This document shows, piece by piece, positions 23,394-35,219 of a stretch of DNA of 64,000 bases. The DNA is from Desulfuromonas acetoxidans DSM 684 (GTDB lineage: Bacteria; Desulfobacterota; Desulfuromonadia; Desulfuromonadales; Desulfuromonadaceae): positions 124,001 through 188,000 of the forward strand of contig NZ_AAEW02000003.1 in NCBI RefSeq assembly GCF_000167355.1, read 5' to 3'. Numbering within the stretch: position 1 is the first letter of the stretch; every line of letters begins with the position of its first letter. A model generated the notes under the pieces. The model saw only the letters and a program-made list of their open reading frames with translations, ran no database searches and was not told the origin of the DNA. The translations under genes and the position numbers were made by a program.

Positions 23394-24023
23394 TTATTGG
23401 GGCTTTTGCACCACCATCCAGAGGCCGATGGCATCGCTGTGGCGCACCGAGTAGTCGCTGATCCCGGCCTTTTCCAGGGCGTTAGTCAAGCGTTTTCGAC
23501 TGGTATCACCCAAGTTGCGCCGAATGCGGTCGCGAAAAGTGTCCTCTTCACCACGTGCTTTAAATGCGCAAATGACCTGTTCAAGAAGCTGCTGATCGCC
23601 GAAACCACCGCCAATGTACATCCAGCCACCGGGTTTCAAAACCTGATAAAGATGCGAAAAACTTTGGTGAAGATCCTCCCAGAAGAACACGGAACCACGG
23701 CTGACAATCAGATCAACACTGTTGGGGGGCACCTCTATCCGTGCGACATCGCTGCATAGCGCGTGGCAGCGGTGTTGAAGCTGACGTGAGTCAATTGTGG
23801 TGGTAACCCGTTTCACCATATCCACAGAAGCATCTACAAAGCCTACGGCAAGATCCGTCTGCTGCAAAAGGGAAAAACCAAGATCACCGGGACCACAACC
23901 GACGTCAAGGCAGCACCCCTCTCGCACATTGGTCGTCTCAATAATTTGAGTCGCAATAACTGGATACACTGGGGCAAAAACGGTTTTGGCTAAATGATCA
24001 AATTTCTTGGCATCAATGGTCAT
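23394..24023 (-). CDS. Class I SAM-dependent methyltransferase at the end of the TonB/FecCD operon
   Basis: About 209 residues with motif I CCLDVGCGPGDLGFSL near residue 35, the acidic residue of VGFVDAS, and VDLIVSRGSVFFWED near residue 105. This resembles the UbiE/methyltransferase-11 type. ATG 24023 has GGAG six bases upstream and is preferred over 24035. It follows the regulator gene by about 150 bases on the same strand. It may modify the compound handled by the upstream transporter, or may be independent. No promoter or terminator was seen in the gap. Confidence 0.82.
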   Translation of the reverse strand: MTIDAKKFDHLAKTVFAPVYPVIATQIIETTNVREGCCLDVGCGPGDLGFSLLQQTDLAVGFVDASVDMVKRVTTTIDSRQLQHRCHALCSDVARIEVPPNSVDLIVSRGSVFFWEDLHQSFSHLYQVLKPGGWMYIGGGFGDQQLLEQVICAFKARGEEDTFRDRIRRNLGDTSRKRLTNALEKAGISDYSVRHSDAIGLWMVVQKPQ

Positions 24024-24174
24024 GGCATTCTCCATAGCTCCACAAAGGGGGCTGAAAAAAGGAACACAAATAAGGTGATAGGCATTTACAATTTACCTGC
24101 TTATGAGAACGCCAGTGACCACTGCAGGTGACAACAATGCCACCCTCCAACTGCTGCACCATTTCTCTGGTGAA

Positions 24175-25293
24175 TCAGACTTCGGCAATCACCTTGCCGG
24201 TGGCAGACGCCTCATAACCGGGCAACGCATCAATCTCTTTACGCAGTGCTGACGAATGCATGACATCAAGCACCACTTTGACCGTGGGGTGGTCAATCAA
24301 ATCTTCGGGAAACAGCAGATCACAACGCACCGCTGTTAAAGGCACAAAACCGAGGTCAAAAGCTTCAGCTATGGCACGTAAGCCCAAAGCGGCATCTGCC
24401 ACATTGCAGGCAATGCGGAAGGCCCCCTCGCGATGGGAATCGACCTCAGTAAGATAGCCGTTGATCATCGGACCGGCGATACCGGCTTTTTGCAGATGAT
24501 CATCCAGCAATACACGCAGGGCAGCCCCGCAATCACGATTGACAAAACGCACCATGGGCTGAACCAGATCAGCGACGCCGCGAATCCCTAACGGATTGCC
24601 CTTAGCTACCATCAACCCCTCTTCGAGCAGGGAAAAACCGATCACTTTAGTACGACGCTGTTGCAGATCTCGGCTGGCGGCAATCACGTTGGATTCCTTT
24701 TGATCCTGATTGTGAAAATGACTGCCGGCAATATGGGCAACCCCTTCCCCCAACCCGCGTAGCGAACGTCGGCTGGAAGCAAACCGGCAATAGACCTGTG
24801 CATCGCGCACCAATCGATTGACATGGTGACTGAGAATTTCAAAGGCCGGATCACAACCCATGAGAATAATATTGTGGTCAAGGGTCTGCGATGGGGAAAA
24901 AATCCGCGCATGCTTACCGTCTTCCGACAAGAGTCCATCGGCGGAACGCAAGCCGAACGGCATGGCGTCATGGCCACTGAGCGGCAAGCCCACCAGGCGG
25001 TCACGCACCCGGCTCAAGGCCAAGCGAGTCGAGGGCAGGCACGTCCCATTGACCAGATCGACCCCCTGCTGTTGTTCCGGGGTGTCATCGACAAACAGAT
25101 CCTCCACCCGGCAGCCGAACAACCGCGCCAGCCGGAGCGATATGCCGGTATTGGGCAGATAGCGGCCAGTTTCAATATCGTAAATGGCCTGGCGTTTGAT
25201 GCCGATGCGCTCAGCGAGTTCTTTTTGCGACCAGCCTTGTTTCTGGCGATAGTCACGCACCATGCATTTAATCGAATCATCTTGTCGGGTCAT
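24175..25293 (-). CDS. One-component regulator: XRE-type HTH fused to a periplasmic-binding-like (COG1910, molybdate-binding type) domain
   Basis: About 372 residues. Residues ~10-65 form an XRE helix-turn-helix: VRDYRQKQGWSQKELAERIG, then KRQAIYDIETGRYLPN. From ~95 the protein reads as a substrate-binding-like domain, with LMGCDPAFEIL, RFVNRDCGAALRVLLDD and IACNVADAALGLRAIAEAF. This matches COG1910, annotated as molybdate-binding-like. It is cytosolic, so it could sense an imported oxyanion or another small ligand. ATG 25293 has AAGGA upstream. It lies within the transport operon, which suggests feedback control of that operon. Confidence 0.85.
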   Translation of the reverse strand: MTRQDDSIKCMVRDYRQKQGWSQKELAERIGIKRQAIYDIETGRYLPNTGISLRLARLFGCRVEDLFVDDTPEQQQGVDLVNGTCLPSTRLALSRVRDRLVGLPLSGHDAMPFGLRSADGLLSEDGKHARIFSPSQTLDHNIILMGCDPAFEILSHHVNRLVRDAQVYCRFASSRRSLRGLGEGVAHIAGSHFHNQDQKESNVIAASRDLQQRRTKVIGFSLLEEGLMVAKGNPLGIRGVADLVQPMVRFVNRDCGAALRVLLDDHLQKAGIAGPMINGYLTEVDSHREGAFRIACNVADAALGLRAIAEAFDLGFVPLTAVRCDLLFPEDLIDHPTVKVVLDVMHSSALRKEIDALPGYEASATGKVIAEV

Positions 25294-25420
25294 AACGTTT
25301 TCCTTGTCGCAGATCACAGTAAATTGTGTTTACGCCAGACACATGTCTGGTACACACGTAACAACCCTCTATTTAGCACAGCGCATTCCCGCCCGTCAAA
25401 CAGACCGAGGTCGATAAACA

Positions 25421-27241
25421 TCACGCTAACAAATTCCCGGCTTCCTTTTGCTCATGCCAATACCAATCCGAGGAGGGTTTAGCAAATGAGCGATTGACTC
25501 TGTCGGCAATGAAATCGACACCATAGAAGCGGCGATAAAACTGCTGTGCTTCATCGAGCACATCAATCCGACAACGTTCCGGATGAAAAATACTCGCAAG
25601 ATGGAGCAAGCCGAGAATCCAGCGCGGACTGCCGAAATCCCAGCCCGCAGCAGGGTGCACAATGATACGTTGGTTGCGCACCGCTTCGACATCAATACCC
25701 AGCGCCGCGCACTCTGTCAGCACATCTTCTTTAGAACTCGACATAAACGCCGACATGACGATCACCTGCGGGTTCAACTCATTCAGTTTATCAACCGTGA
25801 GTCGCCGACCGGGGCGACCACCAACGGAAAGTTGCCGGTTCAGACTTTCGCCCCCTGCCAATTCAACCAGACGGTTTTCCAGACGTCCCGGCCCTATGGC
25901 AAACAGTGTCTTACCCATGGCATAGTAAACACGCGGTCGATCTGTGACACCCGTCATCGCCAGATCCAGATTGTCCAACCAACGTTCAAGGTAGTCAGCC
26001 AACTGCGTTGCGGCAACGGGACGCCCAGCCTGGCGGCCAAAAGAATGTAGCGCATTGAGATAACGACGCGGATCCTGAATATGTTGATGCAGCACCTGCA
26101 AACCATCGCCCTGCAGCAGACTTTCCCATGATCGTGCCACATCCTGCTGGCGTACCACTCCCATGGCGATCAACATGGCTTCAACCATTTCCAGAGCGCG
26201 GGTTAACGGGTAGCCGCCTTGAAAATCCCCCTCTTCAAAGATCGTTGCAGCCACCGTCCCTTTAACAGGCAACTCCACATCACACTGCGGGCACCGCCCC
26301 CCGGCCAAAAGAGCCGGACTTTGATCAAGGAGCAATTTTGCACCCATGGGTCCATAGAAATCCCGCCGAATCACTTCCCCACCACAATCACGACAATAGC
26401 TATTAAGATAAGTGCTGCCGGGAGAATTAAACAGGTAAACATGGTGAAGCCCTTGCTGTAATTCAAGGCAGAGCGCTTCGGCTTCGATAATCGACGGTTC
26501 TTCATCAATCGTCGCCCCTTCAAAGGGCAGAAATCGCATCACCTGTAAAGGAATCTGTCTATCAAGGCGGCTCAACCACTGGCCCAGGGCCATCACTTCA
26601 TTACGATTGGATCGCTGATAAACGCAAGACACTTCAATATGGATACCCGCATCATGCACCCGTTCAATGTTGCGGAGCACCGGAGCCAATCGCGCCCCTC
26701 CACAGGCCTGATACGAGGAGTCACTGAAGCCCTTCATGCCGAAATTGATAAAATCAAGATAAGGCACCAGCTTATCCAGCGCTGCGGCGCTGAAATAGCC
26801 GTTGGTCGAACAACCGACGCTCAGCCCGCACTGAGAAGCCAACTTGGCCACGGCGAGAAAACGCGGAAACGCCGCAAGTGGGTCATTCATCAAAAAAGCG
26901 ATCCCCTCGCAGTCGCTATCCAGCGCCCGATCAATCACCATCTGCGGAGTTAACACTTCAAGGGCACAACTGTCCCGGTTCATCTCTTTAACCAGCACCG
27001 TGGAGATACACCCGGGACAATCAAAATTACAACCGGTGGTGGTCAGTTGCAGAAACTTGCCACCGGGCTGAAAATGCAGCATAGGCATGGTTTCAATGGA
27101 GATGGGACAAGCAACCAGATACCGGTCGGGCTGTCGCTCAACCAGTTGACCATTGCTGAGTTCATAGAGCCCACAGCGGCCAGCCGTTCCATCCTGAAGA
27201 CGGCACTGATGTTCACAAATTGGACAAGTCATTTCAGTCAT
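25421..27241 (-). CDS. Radical SAM protein fused to a C-terminal half of a class III periplasmic-binding protein
   Basis: The 606-residue protein has four parts. An N-terminal Cys cluster (C6, C9, C13, C23) resembles a zinc finger. The radical SAM domain has the [4Fe-4S] motif CNFDCPGC (C71, C75, C78) and is closest to the PflA/AmmeMemoRadiSam group. A zinc ribbon (CRDCGG then CPQC) lies at ~285-330. From ~430 it carries the C-lobe of an iron-complex/BtuF-type binding protein: VYYAMGKTLF, ELAGGESL, LNPQVIVMSA and FYRRFYGVDF. No signal peptide, so it is cytosolic. It follows the second binding protein in the operon. Confidence 0.85.
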   Translation of the reverse strand: MTEMTCPICEHQCRLQDGTAGRCGLYELSNGQLVERQPDRYLVACPISIETMPMLHFQPGGKFLQLTTTGCNFDCPGCISTVLVKEMNRDSCALEVLTPQMVIDRALDSDCEGIAFLMNDPLAAFPRFLAVAKLASQCGLSVGCSTNGYFSAAALDKLVPYLDFINFGMKGFSDSSYQACGGARLAPVLRNIERVHDAGIHIEVSCVYQRSNRNEVMALGQWLSRLDRQIPLQVMRFLPFEGATIDEEPSIIEAEALCLELQQGLHHVYLFNSPGSTYLNSYCRDCGGEVIRRDFYGPMGAKLLLDQSPALLAGGRCPQCDVELPVKGTVAATIFEEGDFQGGYPLTRALEMVEAMLIAMGVVRQQDVARSWESLLQGDGLQVLHQHIQDPRRYLNALHSFGRQAGRPVAATQLADYLERWLDNLDLAMTGVTDRPRVYYAMGKTLFAIGPGRLENRLVELAGGESLNRQLSVGGRPGRRLTVDKLNELNPQVIVMSAFMSSSKEDVLTECAALGIDVEAVRNQRIIVHPAAGWDFGSPRWILGLLHLASIFHPERCRIDVLDEAQQFYRRFYGVDFIADRVNRSFAKPSSDWYWHEQKEAGNLLA

Positions 27242-27333
27242 ATACGTAATCCACAGAGAAAGAGAGGTGATGCGAAAGACAACGGTGATTCACGAAGGAG
27301 GCACTTGACGAACCCATCACCGCCGCTTTCGCA

Positions 27334-28395
27334 TCAAGCCGTTTTTTTATGCTTCACCACCAAAGGATTGGCAAGAAGAGAGTCAATCTCTTCGCTGGTG
27401 AGTTCCATACGGTAAAACAGACGGTAAAAGCAACGCACCTCGTCGGCCATATCCCAGTTAAATTGCTGCGGATACAGCACCCCGCTCAACCAGATCACCC
27501 CGATCAGGCGGTTAATCGACGGGGGACGATCAAACCAGCTATACAACAGCCCCGGCGGTTCGTAACAGGTTCCCCTCTTCACAGCTTCAAGACACGACCA
27601 AAACGGATCGTCGGTCATGCGGGTCAACAGCCGATCTTCGGAATTTCCCTCATCGGACATCACCAGAATCACTTCTGGGTTCCACCGCAGCAGATCATCG
27701 GCACTAATCGGCGTCTGGCCGCAACCACGCAACTCATAGGTTTCAGCACAATTGATCCCGCCGGCCAGATCGATCACTTCGCCATGACGCGCTCCGCGAG
27801 GTTCGGTGTGCAAACCAGACGGCGTTTGCGCGTAATACACGGTATGGCGCGAAGACTTGGGGATGGTGGCTACTGTTCTTTGGATAATGTCGAGTTTTTT
27901 ATCAAAATAATCGGCCAGCATCTCAGCGCGATCTTCGACACCAATCACCAGGCCGACACGGCGAATCACTTCGGCACTACGCTCCAGAGCACCATCAAAA
28001 ATCAGCACCGGGATATCCAGTTCCTTTTGCAGGTTCTCAGCCATTTGAACCTCAGGTTCGTCAATCTTCGACAGCGTCATCGACAGGATCACATCCGGCT
28101 GTGCCTGGCGAATGGCTTCGGTATTAAGGGTTTGTTTACCGCCACCGAACAGGGCACCAAGTACGCCGAGAACCGGCAGGTCAAGATACGATTGCGGCGC
28201 GACCTGCAACTCCAAAGGCGATGGCGGAAAGTTGTGTCCGGCAATCTTTTCCGGCGCCAGGGCATACATCAACGCAGTGATCATCGGGTTGTAACCAAAA
28301 ACTTTTTCTACGCGCTCCTTAACAATGACTTTGCGTCCGGCCATATCAGTGACCAGCCGGGTTCCAACTGGTGGCGTTTTTTCAATATCACTCAT
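27334..28395 (-). CDS. Class III substrate-binding protein without signal peptide (apparently cytosolic)
   Basis: About 353 residues with a full two-lobe fold. The N-lobe has VFGYNPMITALMYALAPEKI and PDVILSMT. The C-lobe has VYYAQTPSGLHTEP, DLAGGINCAE, NPEVILVMSD and SWFDRPPSINRLIG. The family is normally periplasmic, but the start MSDIEKTPP (ATG 28395, GGAG 7 bases upstream) has no hydrophobic leader or lipobox. The alternative GTG/ATG starts upstream do not create one either. It may receive the ligand in the cytosol, for example from the transporter, and hand it to the radical SAM fusion. This is inference. Confidence 0.82.
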   Translation of the reverse strand: MSDIEKTPPVGTRLVTDMAGRKVIVKERVEKVFGYNPMITALMYALAPEKIAGHNFPPSPLELQVAPQSYLDLPVLGVLGALFGGGKQTLNTEAIRQAQPDVILSMTLSKIDEPEVQMAENLQKELDIPVLIFDGALERSAEVIRRVGLVIGVEDRAEMLADYFDKKLDIIQRTVATIPKSSRHTVYYAQTPSGLHTEPRGARHGEVIDLAGGINCAETYELRGCGQTPISADDLLRWNPEVILVMSDEGNSEDRLLTRMTDDPFWSCLEAVKRGTCYEPPGLLYSWFDRPPSINRLIGVIWLSGVLYPQQFNWDMADEVRCFYRLFYRMELTSEEIDSLLANPLVVKHKKTA

Positions 28396-28503
28396 GGATT
28401 CACTCCTTGTTAAAGTCAGCATCTGTTATGCGGACGGCAATATTTTCTTGGCTCCCTTCTCCCGCCGGAAGAAGAATGCTCTGTTAACCAGGTACCGCGA
28501 CCA

Positions 28504-29268
28504 TTAAATTTGCGGCATACAACAGCGATAGCCGTGACGGCTCTCGGCAATTTCTACCGCCACACCGTACAAACGCTGCACGTTATCAGGCGTCAGCACG
28601 CGATCTACCTGATCAAAAGCAAGCATTTCTCCATGGTCGAGCATGGCCACCCGATCCGAACAGGCCAACGCATGATCCGGGTAATGGGTGGTTTTTAAAA
28701 ACGTGGTGCCCTGTTTGGCAAAGTCACGCAAAAAGCGCAGCAACTTGATTTGATTGCCGTAGTCGAGTCCATTGACCGGCTCATCGAGAAACAGGATCTC
28801 CGCCTGCTGACACAACGCCCGAGCGATCAGAGCCAACTGCTGCTGGCCGCCACTGATCCGTGAAAAAGGCATGGCCGACAACGCATCTGCACCAACCTGC
28901 TCCAACGCTTCGTGAGCCAGTCGGTAATCATGCTTGCTGTAGTTTGAAAACAGACCACCATGGGCGAGACGGCCCATCAACACCACATCCAATACCGTGT
29001 AGGAAAACGGCATGTGGTGGATCTGCGGCACATAAGCGATCTTGCGGGCCAGTTCCTGACGGCGGTAATCGCCAATCGGCTTGCCGAACAACCTCACTTC
29101 CCCCTGACCGCGCAGCAGACCGAGCAGGATTTTCAGCAAGGTGCTTTTGCCGCTGCCATTGGGCCCCAATAAAGAGACCACTTCGCCACCGGCAAGATCG
29201 AAATCAACCCCCTGCAATACCGGCTTGCGACCGTAGGAAAATCGGATATTACGCGCCTCAATCACCAT
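28504..29268 (-). CDS. ABC transporter ATP-binding protein (FecE/BtuD/FepC type)
   Basis: The 254-residue protein has Walker A GPNGSGKST, Q-loop YVPQIHH, signature ISGGQQQLALIARAL and Walker B ILFLDEP. This is the iron-complex/vitamin B12 importer ATPase class. Its start overlaps the permease stop (ATTAATG region), so the pair is co-translated. It powers import by the FecCD-type permease encoded upstream. Confidence 0.93.
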   Translation of the reverse strand: MVIEARNIRFSYGRKPVLQGVDFDLAGGEVVSLLGPNGSGKSTLLKILLGLLRGQGEVRLFGKPIGDYRRQELARKIAYVPQIHHMPFSYTVLDVVLMGRLAHGGLFSNYSKHDYRLAHEALEQVGADALSAMPFSRISGGQQQLALIARALCQQAEILFLDEPVNGLDYGNQIKLLRFLRDFAKQGTTFLKTTHYPDHALACSDRVAMLDHGEMLAFDQVDRVLTPDNVQRLYGVAVEIAESRHGYRCCMPQI

Positions 29269-30362
29269 TAATGAAATCCCTCCCGTGCATGTTTCAACAC
29301 GATAATAAAGATGGGAATGCCAACCAGTGACGTCAGGATGCCGATAGGGATCTCATGGGCAAACAAGGTGCGCGACAAATTATCCGTCACCAGCAGGAAC
29401 AGCGCGCCGATCAGCGCGCTGGCCGGCAGCACTTTGCGGTTATCGGCACCGAGCAGCAGCCGCGCCATGTGCGGAATAATCAGACCAATCCAGCCTATGA
29501 CACCAGCCATCACCACGCACAGGGCACTGACCAGGGTGGCCAAAGTGATGGCAATCACCTTGATGCGCCGCACGTTGAGACCAAGAGACTGCGCCTCTTC
29601 ATCGCCAAGGCTCAGGGCGTTGAGATATTTAGCCATCAGCGTCAGAACCAGGACGGAAAACAGCATCGGCCCGGCCACCAGCACAATGGTGTCCTTATCG
29701 CTGAACGACAGACTGCCCATCAACCAGTAGACAATAGCCGGCAGAGTATCGTAGGGATCGGCACTGTACTTAAGCACCGACAACAGTGCGGTAAACAATG
29801 AACTGCTGATCACCCCGCCGAGGATAAGGATGATGACACTGCGACTATTGCGGTAGATCAAAGAGATCATCACCGCTGTGGCCACAGCCGCCGCACCAAA
29901 CACAAATGCCGCCACCTGCACGCCCAGCCACGGCAATTGCAGCACCATGCCTAAAGCAGCACCAAACGATGAACCGGCCAGCACACCGAGAATGCCCGGC
30001 GACACCAGTGGATTAACAAACATGGCCTGAAAGGTACTTCCGGCCACGGACAGTGAAGCACCAATCACCACAGCGGCAATAATGCGCGGCAGGCGGATCT
30101 CAAATATCACACTGTACAAGGTGGCGAACTGCTGGCGCGCCACATCAGACTGGCCGGTGATCACCAGACGAGCAAACTCAGTATAATCATCGTATGATAC
30201 CGGGTATTTGCCCAACAGCAGTGAGGCTTGCATGGCCACCAGCAACACCAGAACCAAGCCGACAAACACCAACTGTTGTCGATTGAACGACCAGCTCAGT
30301 CGCCGACAGGTACTGTTCCGCTTCCACAGCGGACGCCATTTCTCTGAACAGGAAGTGTCCAT
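29268..30362 (-). CDS. FecCD-family ABC transporter permease
   Basis: The 364-residue protein has about ten membrane helices. The family motif RLPRIIAAVVIGASLSVAGS lies near residue 98, GILGVLAGSSFGAALG follows, and GWIGLIIPHMARLLLG lies near 280. These are the hallmarks of FecCD/BtuC permeases, which import siderophores, cobalamin, haem or, in MolB, molybdate. ATG overlaps the TonB stop. One gene presumably forms a homodimeric channel. Confidence 0.93.
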   Translation of the reverse strand: MDTSCSEKWRPLWKRNSTCRRLSWSFNRQQLVFVGLVLVLLVAMQASLLLGKYPVSYDDYTEFARLVITGQSDVARQQFATLYSVIFEIRLPRIIAAVVIGASLSVAGSTFQAMFVNPLVSPGILGVLAGSSFGAALGMVLQLPWLGVQVAAFVFGAAAVATAVMISLIYRNSRSVIILILGGVISSSLFTALLSVLKYSADPYDTLPAIVYWLMGSLSFSDKDTIVLVAGPMLFSVLVLTLMAKYLNALSLGDEEAQSLGLNVRRIKVIAITLATLVSALCVVMAGVIGWIGLIIPHMARLLLGADNRKVLPASALIGALFLLVTDNLSRTLFAHEIPIGILTSLVGIPIFIIVLKHAREGFH

Positions 30363-31258
30363 CAGCGCAACTCAAAAATAATCGGCGCGGTCACCGTCAG
30401 CGCACCTTGGGGCGGCGCAGCAAACGGCGCGGCATGACGAATGGTATGGATCGCAGCCCGATCGAGCATGCGCCTGCCGCAACTGGTCAACACCGTCACG
30501 TTGTTGTCGGTAAGAGAGCCATCCGCCGCAATCTCGAATTGAAATTTGCCCTTCCCTTCGATATGCCATTTACGCGCTTTAAGCGGGTAATGGAGATGTG
30601 CCTGAACCTGCTGTTGGACCAACATGACGTAGCGCTCCAGCTCCGTTGCCATTCGCTCGCCCTGCATGGCCATGCCCGGCACGGGATCAACCACCTGTTC
30701 GGCGGAGGCTGAAACCATTGACGGCCCCTGAACCTGTTCCGCGACATTGGCGACCGCGGCGGCAGCGGCGACCGGCGGCTCAGGCAGGACTTCAGGCTTC
30801 ACAGCCACCTCTTCCTTACGTGGTGCAGGCGGCGGTTCTGGTTCACGCTGCTTTTCAATCGTCGTTTTGATCACTGGAACCGTCGGTTCCACCACTTTCG
30901 GTCTCTCGACAGGTTTGGGCGGGGCAACCACCGGAGGTGGCGTGACAGGCTCGGTGACGCGCACAACAGGTTGTGCGGCAACCGGAGCAGCCGCCACCGC
31001 AGACGGAGCAAAACTGACCAGTGTAATAGGCTGCGCCTCCACCGACTGCGGTGTCTGCGCCGGCACGGCCAGCAAGCTATACAGGCCAACATGCACCACC
31101 GCCGACAGGGTCAAAAATGTGCTCAACCCGGTGCTTTTTACCACTCCCAGCCCAACGGAACCACTGGAGCACAATGGCACCATGGCAACCAAAATGGCCT
31201 TCACGGCCAGCAACCAGGAATACGGCATCACCGCAGAAGATTTAAAGGTTCGGTTCAT
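30362..31258 (-). CDS. tonB: TonB energy transducer
   Basis: About 298 residues. Hydrophobic segments lie at residues ~12-30 and 40-63. A long Pro/Val/Glu-rich spacer (EPVTPPPVVAPPKPVERPK) spans ~75-190. The C-terminal TonB domain contains HYPLKARKWHIEGKGKFQF (quoted in part). The start at 31258 overlaps the ExbD stop by 17 bases; a start at 31294 would overlap further. TonB links the proton-driven ExbBD motor to the outer-membrane receptors, here the product of 33129-35219 and probably also that of 10091-12070. Confidence 0.9.
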   Translation of the reverse strand: MNRTFKSSAVMPYSWLLAVKAILVAMVPLCSSGSVGLGVVKSTGLSTFLTLSAVVHVGLYSLLAVPAQTPQSVEAQPITLVSFAPSAVAAAPVAAQPVVRVTEPVTPPPVVAPPKPVERPKVVEPTVPVIKTTIEKQREPEPPPAPRKEEVAVKPEVLPEPPVAAAAAVANVAEQVQGPSMVSASAEQVVDPVPGMAMQGERMATELERYVMLVQQQVQAHLHYPLKARKWHIEGKGKFQFEIAADGSLTDNNVTVLTSCGRRMLDRAAIHTIRHAAPFAAPPQGALTVTAPIIFELR

Positions 31259-31652
31259 CGTCCTGACTCTCCAGAGCAAAGGTAAAAAAACCATGGCGTT
31301 TGCACAGATCGATCACTTCAACCACCAGACCGTAGCGGGCTCCGGCATCGCTGCGCACCAGCACCGGCCATTCACTATTCGCTTGCTCAAGGTGCGCCAC
31401 CAGTTCGCGACGCTTCACCTGTTTATCGTCCACATACAGCAGTCCTCGCCGGTCGATGCTGATGGTAACGTGGGGATCAGTCTCAGACAGGGAGGCGGCA
31501 GTCTGCGCCTTGGGCAAATTCAGTTCCAGCGCCTGCTGCGTAATAAAACTAGCCGTAGCCATAAACACGATCAGCAGCACCAGCACGATGTCAACGAACG
31601 GTGTCATGTTGATCTGCGAGATCTCCTGGTCCGTCGTGAAATCGTTATTCAT
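31242..31652 (-). CDS. exbD: ExbD/TolR family biopolymer transport protein
   Basis: The 136-residue protein has one N-terminal helix with the conserved aspartate in MTPFVDIVLVLLIVFM. A short periplasmic domain follows, with 'VTISIDRRGLLYVDDKQV'. It forms the proton channel with ExbB. It overlaps exbB by 8 bases and tonB by 17. Confidence 0.92.
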   Translation of the reverse strand: MNNDFTTDQEISQINMTPFVDIVLVLLIVFMATASFITQQALELNLPKAQTAASLSETDPHVTISIDRRGLLYVDDKQVKRRELVAHLEQANSEWPVLVRSDAGARYGLVVEVIDLCKRHGFFTFALESQDDEPNL

Positions 31653-32085
31653 TGTTCTGCCTCAACAACAGCCAGGTTTGCAGGGTCTTTGAAAAGGCGT
31701 TGTAAGCGATCACCGCCGGGATGGCCACCAACAACCCCATGGCCGTGGCCACCAGAGCTTCGGAGATCCCACCCATGACCACCTTGATCCCAGAGCCTTG
31801 CTGCAGATGCAGGTCGTGGAATGCCTTGATCACGCCGAGTACCGTACCAAACAGCCCGATAAACGGCGCGTTGTTGCCGAGGGTAGCAAGTATCGTCAAC
31901 CGCTTCTGACCGAACAGCAGCAGATCACGCTTGCTCAATTGACCATAACAACGCCGCAAGTGAACAAACGCATACAGCCGTTCGAGAATGACGCCCAATG
32001 TCACCACACTAAGTGCCAGCAAAATATACAGAACAAAATCACCGCCACCGAGAAACATCCGCAACAGGGAATCACTGACCTTCAT
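31645..32085 (-). CDS. exbB: ExbB/TolQ/MotA-family proton channel protein
   Basis: The 146-residue protein has three helices and the family core LTILATLGNNAPFIGLFGTVLGVIKAF (quoted in part: NNAPFIGLFGTVLGVIKAF). It is shorter than E. coli ExbB, as in many Deltaproteobacteria. ATG 32085 overlaps the stop of the binding-protein gene; GGAGG lies about 6 bases before it. A GTG codon three bases upstream is an alternative. Confidence 0.92.
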   Translation of the reverse strand: MKVSDSLLRMFLGGGDFVLYILLALSVVTLGVILERLYAFVHLRRCYGQLSKRDLLLFGQKRLTILATLGNNAPFIGLFGTVLGVIKAFHDLHLQQGSGIKVVMGGISEALVATAMGLLVAIPAVIAYNAFSKTLQTWLLLRQNNE

Positions 32086-33125
32086 CACGCCCCTCCTTTT
32101 CCTATCGCACGGGTCGCCGCCGGAAACATCATGCGTGATAAGTCGTCTTCGTCCACCCGCACTCCGAAAAACAGCTCAAAAAACGCCCGCGCCTTCGCTT
32201 TGACATCGTAGGGATAGCGCTGTGGATAAAACTGGGCCGCCAACCAATGCCCACCGATCAGCCGCATGAATGACGGTGGACGGTCGAGCCAGTTGAACGG
32301 GGTTTTTGGCACCAGAGCCACGCGGCCCTGCCGCACCGCTGTCAATTGTTGCCACAGAGGATCGTCAAACAGCTCGCGATAGCACAGCGGATTTTGCACA
32401 ACAATCACTTCGGGATCATAGGCCAAAAGCTGCTCCATATTAATGCTCTGCAACCCCGTCACCGTGGTCTGACGCCCCTGGTGGACATTAATACCTCCGG
32501 CATAACGCAGCGGCTCCGCGTGAAAAGAACCGGCACATTCCGTTTGCAAGCCGTCACGCCCTTCGGCGTAATACACCCGCACCCGTTCGTCGGGGGGGAT
32601 GGTGGCGACAAAGCGTTGCAAATCATCAATCTGCTGTTCGGCCCAAACAGCCAGCGCCTCGCCACGTTTGGCACGACCAATAACTGCAGAGAGTTGACGA
32701 AATACCTGCGGGTAGTTGGCCGTGTCATCAATATTCACCGCCAGCGCCTTGTATCCGATTCGTCCCAGATCGCCATCCACTTTGTCCTGCAACAACGGCG
32801 TATCCCAACTGACAATCAGATCCGGCTTTTGCCGGAGAATCTCTTCGAGATTGGGGTGACGATTGCCGTGCCAACCACCGAGAACCGGCAAGTGGCGGAA
32901 CCATTCACGCAAAAACCGATCATCCGCGTTGTTGGATGGATTGCGCAGCGGAGCATTAACAGCAATCAGCCCGTCTGCACCAAGCACATAGAGGAGATGG
33001 GTAATGGGCGGCGCCGTACCGTAAATGCGCTGTGGCTGGGCATCCCTGTGCCCCCCCTGGGAAGCGGGGGCCACATTGGGAAACATCACAAACACACAAC
33101 AGATGAGCAGGAGCAGGCCACGCAT
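32085..33125 (-). CDS. Class III periplasmic substrate-binding protein
   Basis: The 346-residue protein has a signal peptide, LLLLICCVFVMFPNVAPA. The binding-protein lobes follow, with RIYGTAPPITHLLYVLG, KPDLIVSWDTPLL, VYYAEGRDGLQTECAG, RYAGGINV, DPEVIVVQNPL, FNWLDRPPSFMRLIG and a tail FFELFFGVRV. It belongs to the family that feeds FecCD permeases; members bind Fe, Ni, Co or oxyanion complexes. It lies 3 bases from the receptor stop and overlaps exbB. It shares clear C-lobe motifs with two other proteins of this operon. Confidence 0.9.
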   Translation of the reverse strand: MRGLLLLICCVFVMFPNVAPASQGGHRDAQPQRIYGTAPPITHLLYVLGADGLIAVNAPLRNPSNNADDRFLREWFRHLPVLGGWHGNRHPNLEEILRQKPDLIVSWDTPLLQDKVDGDLGRIGYKALAVNIDDTANYPQVFRQLSAVIGRAKRGEALAVWAEQQIDDLQRFVATIPPDERVRVYYAEGRDGLQTECAGSFHAEPLRYAGGINVHQGRQTTVTGLQSINMEQLLAYDPEVIVVQNPLCYRELFDDPLWQQLTAVRQGRVALVPKTPFNWLDRPPSFMRLIGGHWLAAQFYPQRYPYDVKAKARAFFELFFGVRVDEDDLSRMMFPAATRAIGKGGA

Positions 33126-33128
33126 GGC

Positions 33129-35219
33129 TTAAAATCCGACCTGTACCGACAGCACACCGTTAATACCGGCTTCATCGGGCAGATACCACGAAGTCGCCGA
33201 CACTTTATCGAGATGCTGACGATAATCGCGGTCAAGAACGTTGTTCAGTTCAAACGCCACCACCGGCGCAGTCATCCAGCCGATATCGGCAAAGGCATAG
33301 CTGACAGCCAGATTGGTAATGGCATAGCCCGGTGTTTCCACCTCGCCATTGACTGTGGAGATGCGGTCCTGCTCATCAACCATCACCTCTTCGATGAACC
33401 AGCTCAGACCGGTTTTACGCTGCTGACCGATGGTCAGGGTCAGCTTTTGCGGAGCAATGTAGGCCAAAGGCTGGTCATCCATTTCATTTTTGCCATAGGT
33501 ATAGAGATAGGCGGCTTCAACAAACAGATCAGCGCCGAAATCGTAACCAAGCAACGCCTCTGCACCGTAGACTGTGGCGTCATCGAGATTGACATAGCGC
33601 TTGATGGGCAGACCGGCAGTGGTCTGGTAACCGGTTTGAACCAGTTCGATATAGTCGGTGTAGTCTTGGTAGTACAAGGCACTGGTGTAGTAAAGGCCAC
33701 CGATGCGACCGTCAAAACCGACATCAACACCCCAGACACTTTCGTTGTCCAGATCCTGATTAGGGACCATGGAGCCATTGTTGGGGTTGTTGCCGTAGGA
33801 CTCATTAAAGTACGGCGTGCGACTGGCATTGGAGAGTTTCACATAAGGGACAAAGGCGGAACAGAACTCATAGCCGGCCGTGGCACTGACCGACAGCAGA
33901 TGATCACGTTCATCCGTATCCTTCTGTTGCACCTGATCAAGCAGTTCCGACGGCACCAGGCCGGACAGGGCTGTTGAATTGACGTTGGAATGGACTTTGC
34001 GACGGACAAATTCATACCCGGCCGCAACATTGAAAAACGCCTTGCCGTAGACCATATCGTCGGCAACGTTAACCATGGTGGAACTGATTTCGCCATCGGT
34101 AATGCCGAAAGCACTCACCCAGTCGCTCCAACTCTGCGTGGCACCGTTAAACATACGCACGCCGTTGGTCACTTCCATCTTGGTATATTTGCCGGAAAAC
34201 GACAGCAGGTGGTTGCCGAGCTCTTTTTGCGCCGAGAGCTTGCCACCACGGGTTTCGCTATCGCGGAACAGCTCACGCACTTCGGGAATAGCCGCTTCCT
34301 TTTTCATGTCCATATCATAGTGGAGATCGCTGCCAAACAGTTGCAGATGAACGTTTTGCAGGCCTCCGAGTTCCGCGTCTTTGTAGCCGATGAACAGGGT
34401 CTCGCCGTCATCGTTGGGGCGGTCGGTATAAAACCAGACGCCGTTATTCTGGTAACGGGAAAAAGGATCCTCCGAATCAGCTTTATCCTTCATGTAACGG
34501 ACATAGACGTGACTGTCGTCAGTGATCTTCACGGCCATACTGACATTGTAGTTAGAGGTCTCGTATTGGGAGTGTTCAACGTCATCGCCCTCACCGTCTT
34601 CATAGTCATCGTAATCGGACAAGCCGCCACTCACCGCGATATTGAAGCGATCATTGTAAGCGCGTCCTCCCAAAGCGGCTGAATACCCAGAGGTGGAAAA
34701 CATCGATGTTTTGGCTTTAAAAAAACCACTGGTGACAAACGCCGCACTGTCGGCGAATTCGGGATCACTGAATTTGACCACAACCGCGCCGCTCATAGCG
34801 CCCATACCCAATGTTGCTCCACTGGGGCCGCGATAAACTTCCACGGTTTCCACGTCAATCAGGTTGAACAGATTAGTCGAGTCACTATGACCACTGTTAA
34901 GGCGCATCCCTTCCAGATAAACCGGCACACCCTTGGTGCCGCGCCCGCGAATGTAGGGTTCGGAGCTATACTCGCCGGATTTCTGGAATTCAACAAAGAA
35001 TTCCTTGTCGAGCGCTTCGGTAAGAGACACCGGCTGCACCGGTTGTTCCGTGACGACAACAACCTTCTTGGGCTCTGCCAGCGTCTCGGTCACAGGAACC
35101 GACTCGGTGATCTTGACGGGGTCAAGAACAACGCTGTCATCGGCCAAGGCGCTGCCGACAGTACTCAGGACCATCATTGCTATGGTCAGGGAAATAAAGA
35201 ACGTGGATAAACGTTTCAT
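33129..35219 (-). CDS. TonB-dependent outer-membrane receptor (metal or metal-complex uptake)
   Basis: The 696-residue protein has a signal peptide ending at SALADD. A Pro/Val-rich stretch precedes the plug, which has YIRGRGTKGVPVYLEG, VETVEVYRGPSGATLGMGAMSGAV and VVKFSDP. The barrel ends in VLSVQVGF, with the C-terminal Phe needed for assembly. AGGAGG lies 8 bases before the ATG. It heads the operon with its own ExbBD-TonB and FecCD transporter. The ligand is not evident. Confidence 0.93.
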   Translation of the reverse strand: MKRLSTFFISLTIAMMVLSTVGSALADDSVVLDPVKITESVPVTETLAEPKKVVVVTEQPVQPVSLTEALDKEFFVEFQKSGEYSSEPYIRGRGTKGVPVYLEGMRLNSGHSDSTNLFNLIDVETVEVYRGPSGATLGMGAMSGAVVVKFSDPEFADSAAFVTSGFFKAKTSMFSTSGYSAALGGRAYNDRFNIAVSGGLSDYDDYEDGEGDDVEHSQYETSNYNVSMAVKITDDSHVYVRYMKDKADSEDPFSRYQNNGVWFYTDRPNDDGETLFIGYKDAELGGLQNVHLQLFGSDLHYDMDMKKEAAIPEVRELFRDSETRGGKLSAQKELGNHLLSFSGKYTKMEVTNGVRMFNGATQSWSDWVSAFGITDGEISSTMVNVADDMVYGKAFFNVAAGYEFVRRKVHSNVNSTALSGLVPSELLDQVQQKDTDERDHLLSVSATAGYEFCSAFVPYVKLSNASRTPYFNESYGNNPNNGSMVPNQDLDNESVWGVDVGFDGRIGGLYYTSALYYQDYTDYIELVQTGYQTTAGLPIKRYVNLDDATVYGAEALLGYDFGADLFVEAAYLYTYGKNEMDDQPLAYIAPQKLTLTIGQQRKTGLSWFIEEVMVDEQDRISTVNGEVETPGYAITNLAVSYAFADIGWMTAPVVAFELNNVLDRDYRQHLDKVSATSWYLPDEAGINGVLSVQVGF

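Follow-up and report, generated by a model that had tools for sequence, protein, structure and literature searches.

Genes at the locus

The window analyzed here is a 64,000-nucleotide stretch of the genome of Desulfuromonas acetoxidans DSM 684. On its minus strand, a run of genes from 23394 to 35219 encodes an importer, a substrate-binding protein (SBP) without a leader, a radical-SAM fusion enzyme, a regulator, and a methyltransferase. Read along that strand, the run opens with a TonB-dependent outer-membrane receptor (33129–35219; PF00593 and PF07715) and an exported binding protein, with the leader MRGLLLLICCVFVMFP, from the family of the leaderless one (32085–33125; PF01497, 52.6 bits). 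These are followed by ExbB (31645–32088; PF01618), ExbD (31242–31652; PF02472), TonB (30362–31294; PF03544), a FecCD-type permease (29268–30362; PF01032, 265.8 bits), and the ABC ATPase of the importer (28504–29268; PF00005). The leaderless, predicted cytosolic binding protein of the Peripla_BP_2 family comes next (27334–28395; PF01497), and then a fusion of a radical-SAM enzyme with half a binding protein (25421–27241; PF04055), a regulator composed of HTH_3 and PBP_like domains (24175–25317; HTH_3, 58 bits; PF12727, 163.7 bits), and a SAM-dependent methyltransferase (23394–24035; PF13649).

Candidate promoter and terminator sites within the run are no more numerous than expected from shuffled sequences, so it is from gene order, strand, and spacing alone that we infer a single operon spanning 23394–35219. 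Relatives of the regulator adjoin the corresponding systems of Syntrophomonas and of f4, a set of genomes from the same order, and relatives of the methyltransferase adjoin radical-SAM/half-SBP fusions elsewhere. The genome of the window also holds a second cluster (G000:C6, L075 7853–13119) with an exported SBP of the family, a TonB receptor, a regulator of the HTH_PBP type, and a ModA-like SBP_bac_11 protein. In a congener (G008, L082 11950–14039), the TonB-receptor gene appears as two overlapping reading frames and may be broken there. Small P-loop proteins recur beside these systems, one assigned by its match to PF03266 (NTPase_1; L067 17542–18153) and two by eye (L123 6981–7685 and L111 10998–11603).

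Start, location, and descent of the leaderless protein

The leaderless protein begins at an ATG at position 28395 of the minus strand (N terminus MSDIEKTPPVGTRLVTD...), with a good ribosome-binding site, AAGGAG (28408–28403), 7 nt before it; the coordinates and N terminus assigned to it by an earlier sequence-only reading hold. The sole longer in-frame start, an ATG at 28422, would add MLTLTRSES, and above it the frame is closed by an in-frame TAA (28428–28426, 11 codons upstream) that excludes a longer N terminus. On a simple hydrophobicity score with a threshold of 1.9, which is not a trained signal-peptide predictor, the top 12-residue window of the N terminus reaches −0.02, or 0.24 when the longer start is included. 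No cysteine occurs in the first 20 residues, so no lipobox is seen, and a twin-arginine followed by a hydrophobic stretch (Tat motif) was not found in the protein or its orthologues; an RR pair is present in the optional upstream codons of the orthologues L007 and L008, where a hydrophobic core is absent.

The ATG of the leaderless protein follows the stop codon of the ATPase gene by only 41 and 35 nt in two orthologues, so any leader would overlap the ATPase gene, and the hydrophobicity of the upstream frame tops out at 1.29 and 1.56 against the threshold of 1.9. Together, the in-frame stop, the ribosome-binding site, and these short gaps rule out a missed upstream start or a frameshift that hides a leader. 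The sequence-only reading had stated that the protein has neither hydrophobic core nor lipobox and that the upstream in-frame codons supply no signal, both of which we confirm; it had named an overlooked start with a signal peptide as the finding that would overturn it, and we looked for such a start and found none. The cytosolic site that it proposed is strongly supported by the lack of a leader, the lack of room for one, and the same state in all four orthologues.

These four full-length orthologues (the window, G002, G007, and G008) all come from the same genus and are all leaderless. The other three are 85–90% identical to the protein of the window, and all four begin with MSD or MTD, continue to PPxGTRL, and show no strongly hydrophobic stretch. 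A fifth genome of the genus that has the system, G001, retains just the C-terminal 47 residues, where a contig ends. Among the four proteins, dN/dS is 0.05–0.08 for five of the six pairs and 0.17 for the closest one (dS 0.34–1.42), with 0.055–0.066 for the permease; the range of 0.05–0.17 rules out a pseudogene. No orthologue was found outside the genus, the next best matches being 38% identical among 98 relatives and 37% among 395 genomes of the phylum. A search of genome_contigs, covering the best 80 of 265 relatives and possibly omitting the genus of the window, returned no orthologue and a next best match of 42%.

Of 168 family members whose N terminus could be read, 160 have a hydrophobic leader, 86 of the 160 with a lipobox-like motif; the set was fetched as nearest relatives and thus does not represent the family at large. 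The 168 were kept from 199 frames after removal of 10 without the N-terminal domain (mostly radical-SAM fusions), 1 at a contig edge, and 20 duplicates. Eight members fall below the leader threshold: the four orthologues and L106, L174, L148, and L186, none of which we accept as a further leaderless member. In L106 (1–1200), near a contig start, the SBP is joined in frame to a broken ABC ATPase fragment, through either a natural fusion or an assembly fault; L174 (9704–10972, Desulfosporosinus) is a fusion of the same SBP family with an N-terminal PG_binding_1 domain, and its scored region shows no hydrophobic leader; L148 matches weakly (88 bits), and L186 has a leader-like stretch (H 2.36).

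The homologues are thus mostly exported, a result that the sequence-only reading had listed as a refutation. The cytosolic claim nevertheless stands, because all four full-length orthologues of the genus are leaderless and constrained. Since the relatives elsewhere are exported, the leaderless state is derived, and the predicted loss of export is a retained trait of one lineage rather than of the family as a whole.

A maximum-likelihood tree of 82 rows places the leaderless clade (support 100/100, stem 1.27) within a mostly Firmicutes clade. Its sister is an exported SBP from Treponema (99/91), although the long stems make the exact sister unsure. The exported SBP of the operon itself belongs to the other main clade, whose 22 rows all come from genomes of the phylum of the window; we therefore reject a recent tandem copy of this protein as the origin of the leaderless one, which the tree sets far apart. 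Most simply, the leader would have been lost on the one long branch (1.27), with strong conservation of the protein afterwards.

The leaderless protein matches PF01497 with 68.4 bits (gathering cut-off 27.5), and its AlphaFold2 model (pLDDT 87.8) is a complete two-lobe structure with the lobes joined by a long helix. The best Foldseek match in the PDB is 4pag (TM 0.80/0.90), which agrees with the full two-lobe fold claimed from sequence; molybdate-binding MolA (3psa) follows with TM 0.69/0.76. A phmmer search of PDB sequences also places 4pag (E 8e-40) and 4ovk nearest, with MolA further down, and iron-siderophore binders match the family in both the sequence and the fold searches. The genome of the window yields five matches to the protein, itself included. 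Because it has no export signal or lipobox, the protein belongs to Peripla_BP_2 (FecB/TroA type) through its descent, whereas its predicted location is not the periplasm.

Among 78 other relatives (L174, whose leader is not seen, included), 37 alignment columns are conserved at 95% or more; the four leaderless proteins all keep the residue in 33 of these columns, the exceptions being P35, G200, E242, and P293. At the level of at least 85%, ten columns differ, the six further changes being V87 (Gly in most relatives), E199Q, S211A, V225C, Q243D, and N295S. E199Q, G200T, and P293L fall near the YYAEG and PFNWFDRPP motifs. Given these ten changes, the leaderless proteins may have another ligand or another affinity.

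Residues Glu-102 and Asp-242 align with Glu-72 and Glu-202 of BtuF, which we take to be permease-docking residues. Glu-102 is kept, and at position 242, where 76 of the 78 relatives have Glu, the four leaderless proteins all carry Asp. Both positions are still acidic, so the protein may still be able to dock on the transporter, and we dropped lost docking acids as a proof of cytosolic work. Retained acids in an otherwise exported family could also speak for export after all, by an unrecognized route or from a misread start. We consider this very improbable in light of the in-frame stop, the ribosome-binding site at the short start, the gaps of 35–41 nt in two orthologues, and the missing leader in four of four.

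The radical-SAM fusion and the cargo of the system

In the fusion enzyme (25421–27241), a radical-SAM domain (residues ∼34–280) precedes half an SBP (residues ∼349–580) made of the spine helix and the C-lobe. Using VIA-align, the radical-SAM domain superimposes with the pyruvate formate-lyase-activating enzyme PFL-AE (3cb8; Z 19.9, 222 residues, rmsd 2.9) and with NifB (6y1x; Z 17.0, 207 residues, rmsd 2.8), and residues 349–580 superimpose with the SBP 4hn9 (Z 20.9, 220 of 316 residues, rmsd 2.6) and with MolA (3psa; Z 18.6, 216 residues, rmsd 2.6). Residues 343–430 of the model are helices only, followed by the strands of the C-lobe, indicating that most of the N-lobe sheet is missing. The fusion likewise lacks a leader, and in Pfam and NCBIfam no family other than Radical_SAM scores above its cut-off.

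Fusions that are 48–51% identical over ∼600 amino acids occur near an SBP gene in ten Clostridia-type loci (L123, L131, L142, L144, L145, L146, L152, L153, L158, and L160). The SBPs encoded near the fusion in Sporomusa, Pelotomaculum, Desulfotruncus, Syntrophomonas, and Dethiobacter loci are exported. The four f4 genomes carry a fusion of 51–53% identity; on plasmids, 20 records matched parts of the fusion and none covered 80% of it. Of 10 genomes of the genus, five carry the fusion, and the same five carry the leaderless protein (partial in G001). Since the Clostridial and f4 systems have the fusion but no leaderless protein, the latter is not essential to the work of the fusion.

This distribution bears on the idea that the leaderless protein is an accessory subunit that pairs with the fused half SBP, completes its pocket, and presents the ligand to the radical-SAM site. 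The adjacent genes, their joint presence in the five genomes, and a half SBP without most of an N-lobe would fit such a complex. However, Clostridia and f4 conserve the fusion but have no such partner, and the leaderless protein already has both lobes, which makes this arrangement quite unlikely in our judgment. In the literature that we searched, mostly open access and at the level of abstracts, we recognized neither a leaderless FecB-type SBP nor a radical-SAM/half-SBP fusion; of the two, the fusion may be the more novel object.

The cargo of the system is approached through its relatives. The Rfam scan covered 23 of 80 named loci, a nonrandom choice of fusion carriers and close SBP loci from the mostly Firmicutes clade. 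In 10 of these 23, the Moco riboswitch RF01055 reaches the gathering score (L145 and L147 look like one case), and it is absent from 13. All nine cases that we laid out (L115, L120, L136, L139, L147, L149, L157, L158, and L160) precede, on the same strand, FecCD/SBP operons of the family, separated from them by no more than short or unassigned ORFs or an FmdE gene; in L147, L158, and L160, the operon includes the fusion gene. RNAs of the RF01055 type precede genes for Moco and Tuco and for molybdate/tungstate transporters, as described in PMC2408646. Among the 101 neighboring proteins in 16 fusion loci, DUF364, DUF4213, and FmdE each account for five, and PMC2954201 ties DUF364 to the transport of Mo, W, V, and Fe.

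Moco-II (RF01713) occurs in 4 of the 8 Desulfuromonadia-type loci scanned and in 8 genomes among 98 relatives. When 30 Moco-II sites were taken as loci, 4 lay beside an HTH_3 + PBP_like regulator, 2 beside the SBP or TonB receptor of the system alone, and 24 had none of its genes within ∼1.5 kb; Moco-II thus marks more than this system. Several copies are imperfect palindromes of 44–46 nt (L065 5294–5413, L066 1138–1183, L068 2814–2857 and 5531–5576, and L070 4790–4833), and Moco-II copies might act as DNA operators instead of, or in addition to, RNA elements.

Rfam detects neither RF01055 nor RF01713 before the operon of the window, and no Moco-II was found in its genus; the three Moco riboswitches of the genome lie elsewhere. 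With Moco RNAs before the operons of relatives and none at this operon, molybdenum/tungsten is probably the cargo class of the system by kinship. The ligand may, however, have changed in the lineage of the window, as the TonB receptor matches only the copper receptor OprC among PDB sequences (over residues 35–256) and, below the cut-off, also resembles hemin receptors. The leaderless protein could thus be a cytosolic store or carrier for an iron, copper, heme, or corrinoid complex, for which the family's matches to iron-siderophore binders and the missing Moco-type RNA could also be cited. Against this stand the Moco riboswitches and Moco-II elements before relatives' operons, the PF12727 regulator in the run, and the lack of an Rfam match to a cobalamin or any other riboswitch at the operon or in the window; we regard a cargo other than Mo/W as rather unlikely.

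Proposed role and comparison with known systems

Binding of the ligand after import, as the sequence-only reading suggested, would be the most sensible consequence of a cytosolic location and fits the neighboring fusion. We tentatively favor, at a little short of even confidence, a cytosolic receptor that takes over an imported Mo/W species and serves the radical-SAM/half-receptor enzyme. A MolA/FecB-type binding protein would have lost its export signal and would work in the cytosol, while the exported binding protein of the operon would keep the periplasmic job for the importer of TonB receptor, FecCD permease, and ATPase. On the inner side, the leaderless protein would receive the imported metal, most likely as molybdate, tungstate, or a Mo/W complex, hold it bound, and pass it to the radical-SAM fusion, a hand-over that would be a step toward use in a Mo/W cofactor. 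Residence in the cytosol of the living cell, co-transcription, a Mo/W ligand in the genus, the binding of that ligand, and the hand-over are the parts of this scheme that we infer.

The main rival is a cytosolic sensor that, on binding imported substrate, would slow the FecCD/ATPase complex by trans-inhibition, as proposed for the NrtC/CmpC domain. CmpC provides a precedent, its cytosolic SBP-like domain being described in PMC11349869 as a putative solute-binding regulatory unit. The leaderless gene directly follows the ATPase gene, and the residues of the docking face are still acidic. The protein is, however, a separate polypeptide that is not fused to the ATPase, the run already includes a regulator with its own ligand domain (HTH_3 + PBP_like), and the tight co-occurrence is with the radical-SAM fusion; we consider a sensor unlikely.

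Beyond the favored hand-over to the radical-SAM enzyme, the system might represent an uncharacterized anaerobic line of Mo/W cofactor chemistry, in which an imported complex is held by cytosolic receptors of the SBP fold and its organic part is modified or stripped. The leaderless protein would be one holder and the half-receptor part of the radical-SAM fusion the other; the modifiers or strippers would be the radical-SAM domain, the methyltransferase, and, in relatives, FmdE and DUF364. Such a line, to which we assign a small chance, would follow the scaffold-plus-radical-SAM logic of NifB/NifEN, with transport proteins redirected to the inside of the cell as its components.

Binding proteins are generally regarded as periplasmic or extracellular, and to our knowledge the receipt of metal cargo after import is poorly described for molybdenum and tungsten. 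A conserved cytosolic SBP beside an exported relative would show how imported metal cargo may be received, and the neighboring genes give the reading of a ligand bound after import a concrete and testable setting. The gene set is defined (leaderless receptor, radical-SAM/half-receptor fusion, and methyltransferase, with FmdE and DUF364 in relatives) and is marked by Moco riboswitches in some Clostridia, making its function directly testable.

Among known systems, MolA (HI1472), the molybdate/tungstate SBP of MolBCA, and the Sulfurospirillum SBP 4pag share family and fold with the leaderless protein. Both are periplasmic, whereas the leaderless protein has no export signal, accompanies an exported paralogue, and has a Mo/W ligand predicted from kinship. 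MolA binds molybdate and tungstate and serves a Type II importer, as reported in PMC4031551. In NrtC/CmpC, an SBP-type domain of an importer has likewise moved into the cytosol, but according to PMC11349869 it forms part of the ATPase and is a homologue of NrtA/CmpA, whereas the leaderless protein belongs to the FecB/MolA family and is encoded by an ORF separate from that of the ATPase. The nearest named family for the radical-SAM part of the fusion is AmmeMemoRadiSam (TIGR04337; 132.2 bits, below the cut-off of 220), from which the enzyme of the window differs by its fusion to half a binding protein. NifB and NifEN are a cytosolic pair of a radical-SAM enzyme and a metal receptor with a helical backbone. 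The radical-SAM part of the fusion aligns with NifB, and the fusion combines such a domain with a metal-receptor-type fold, a likeness to NifB/NifEN in logic and not in membership.
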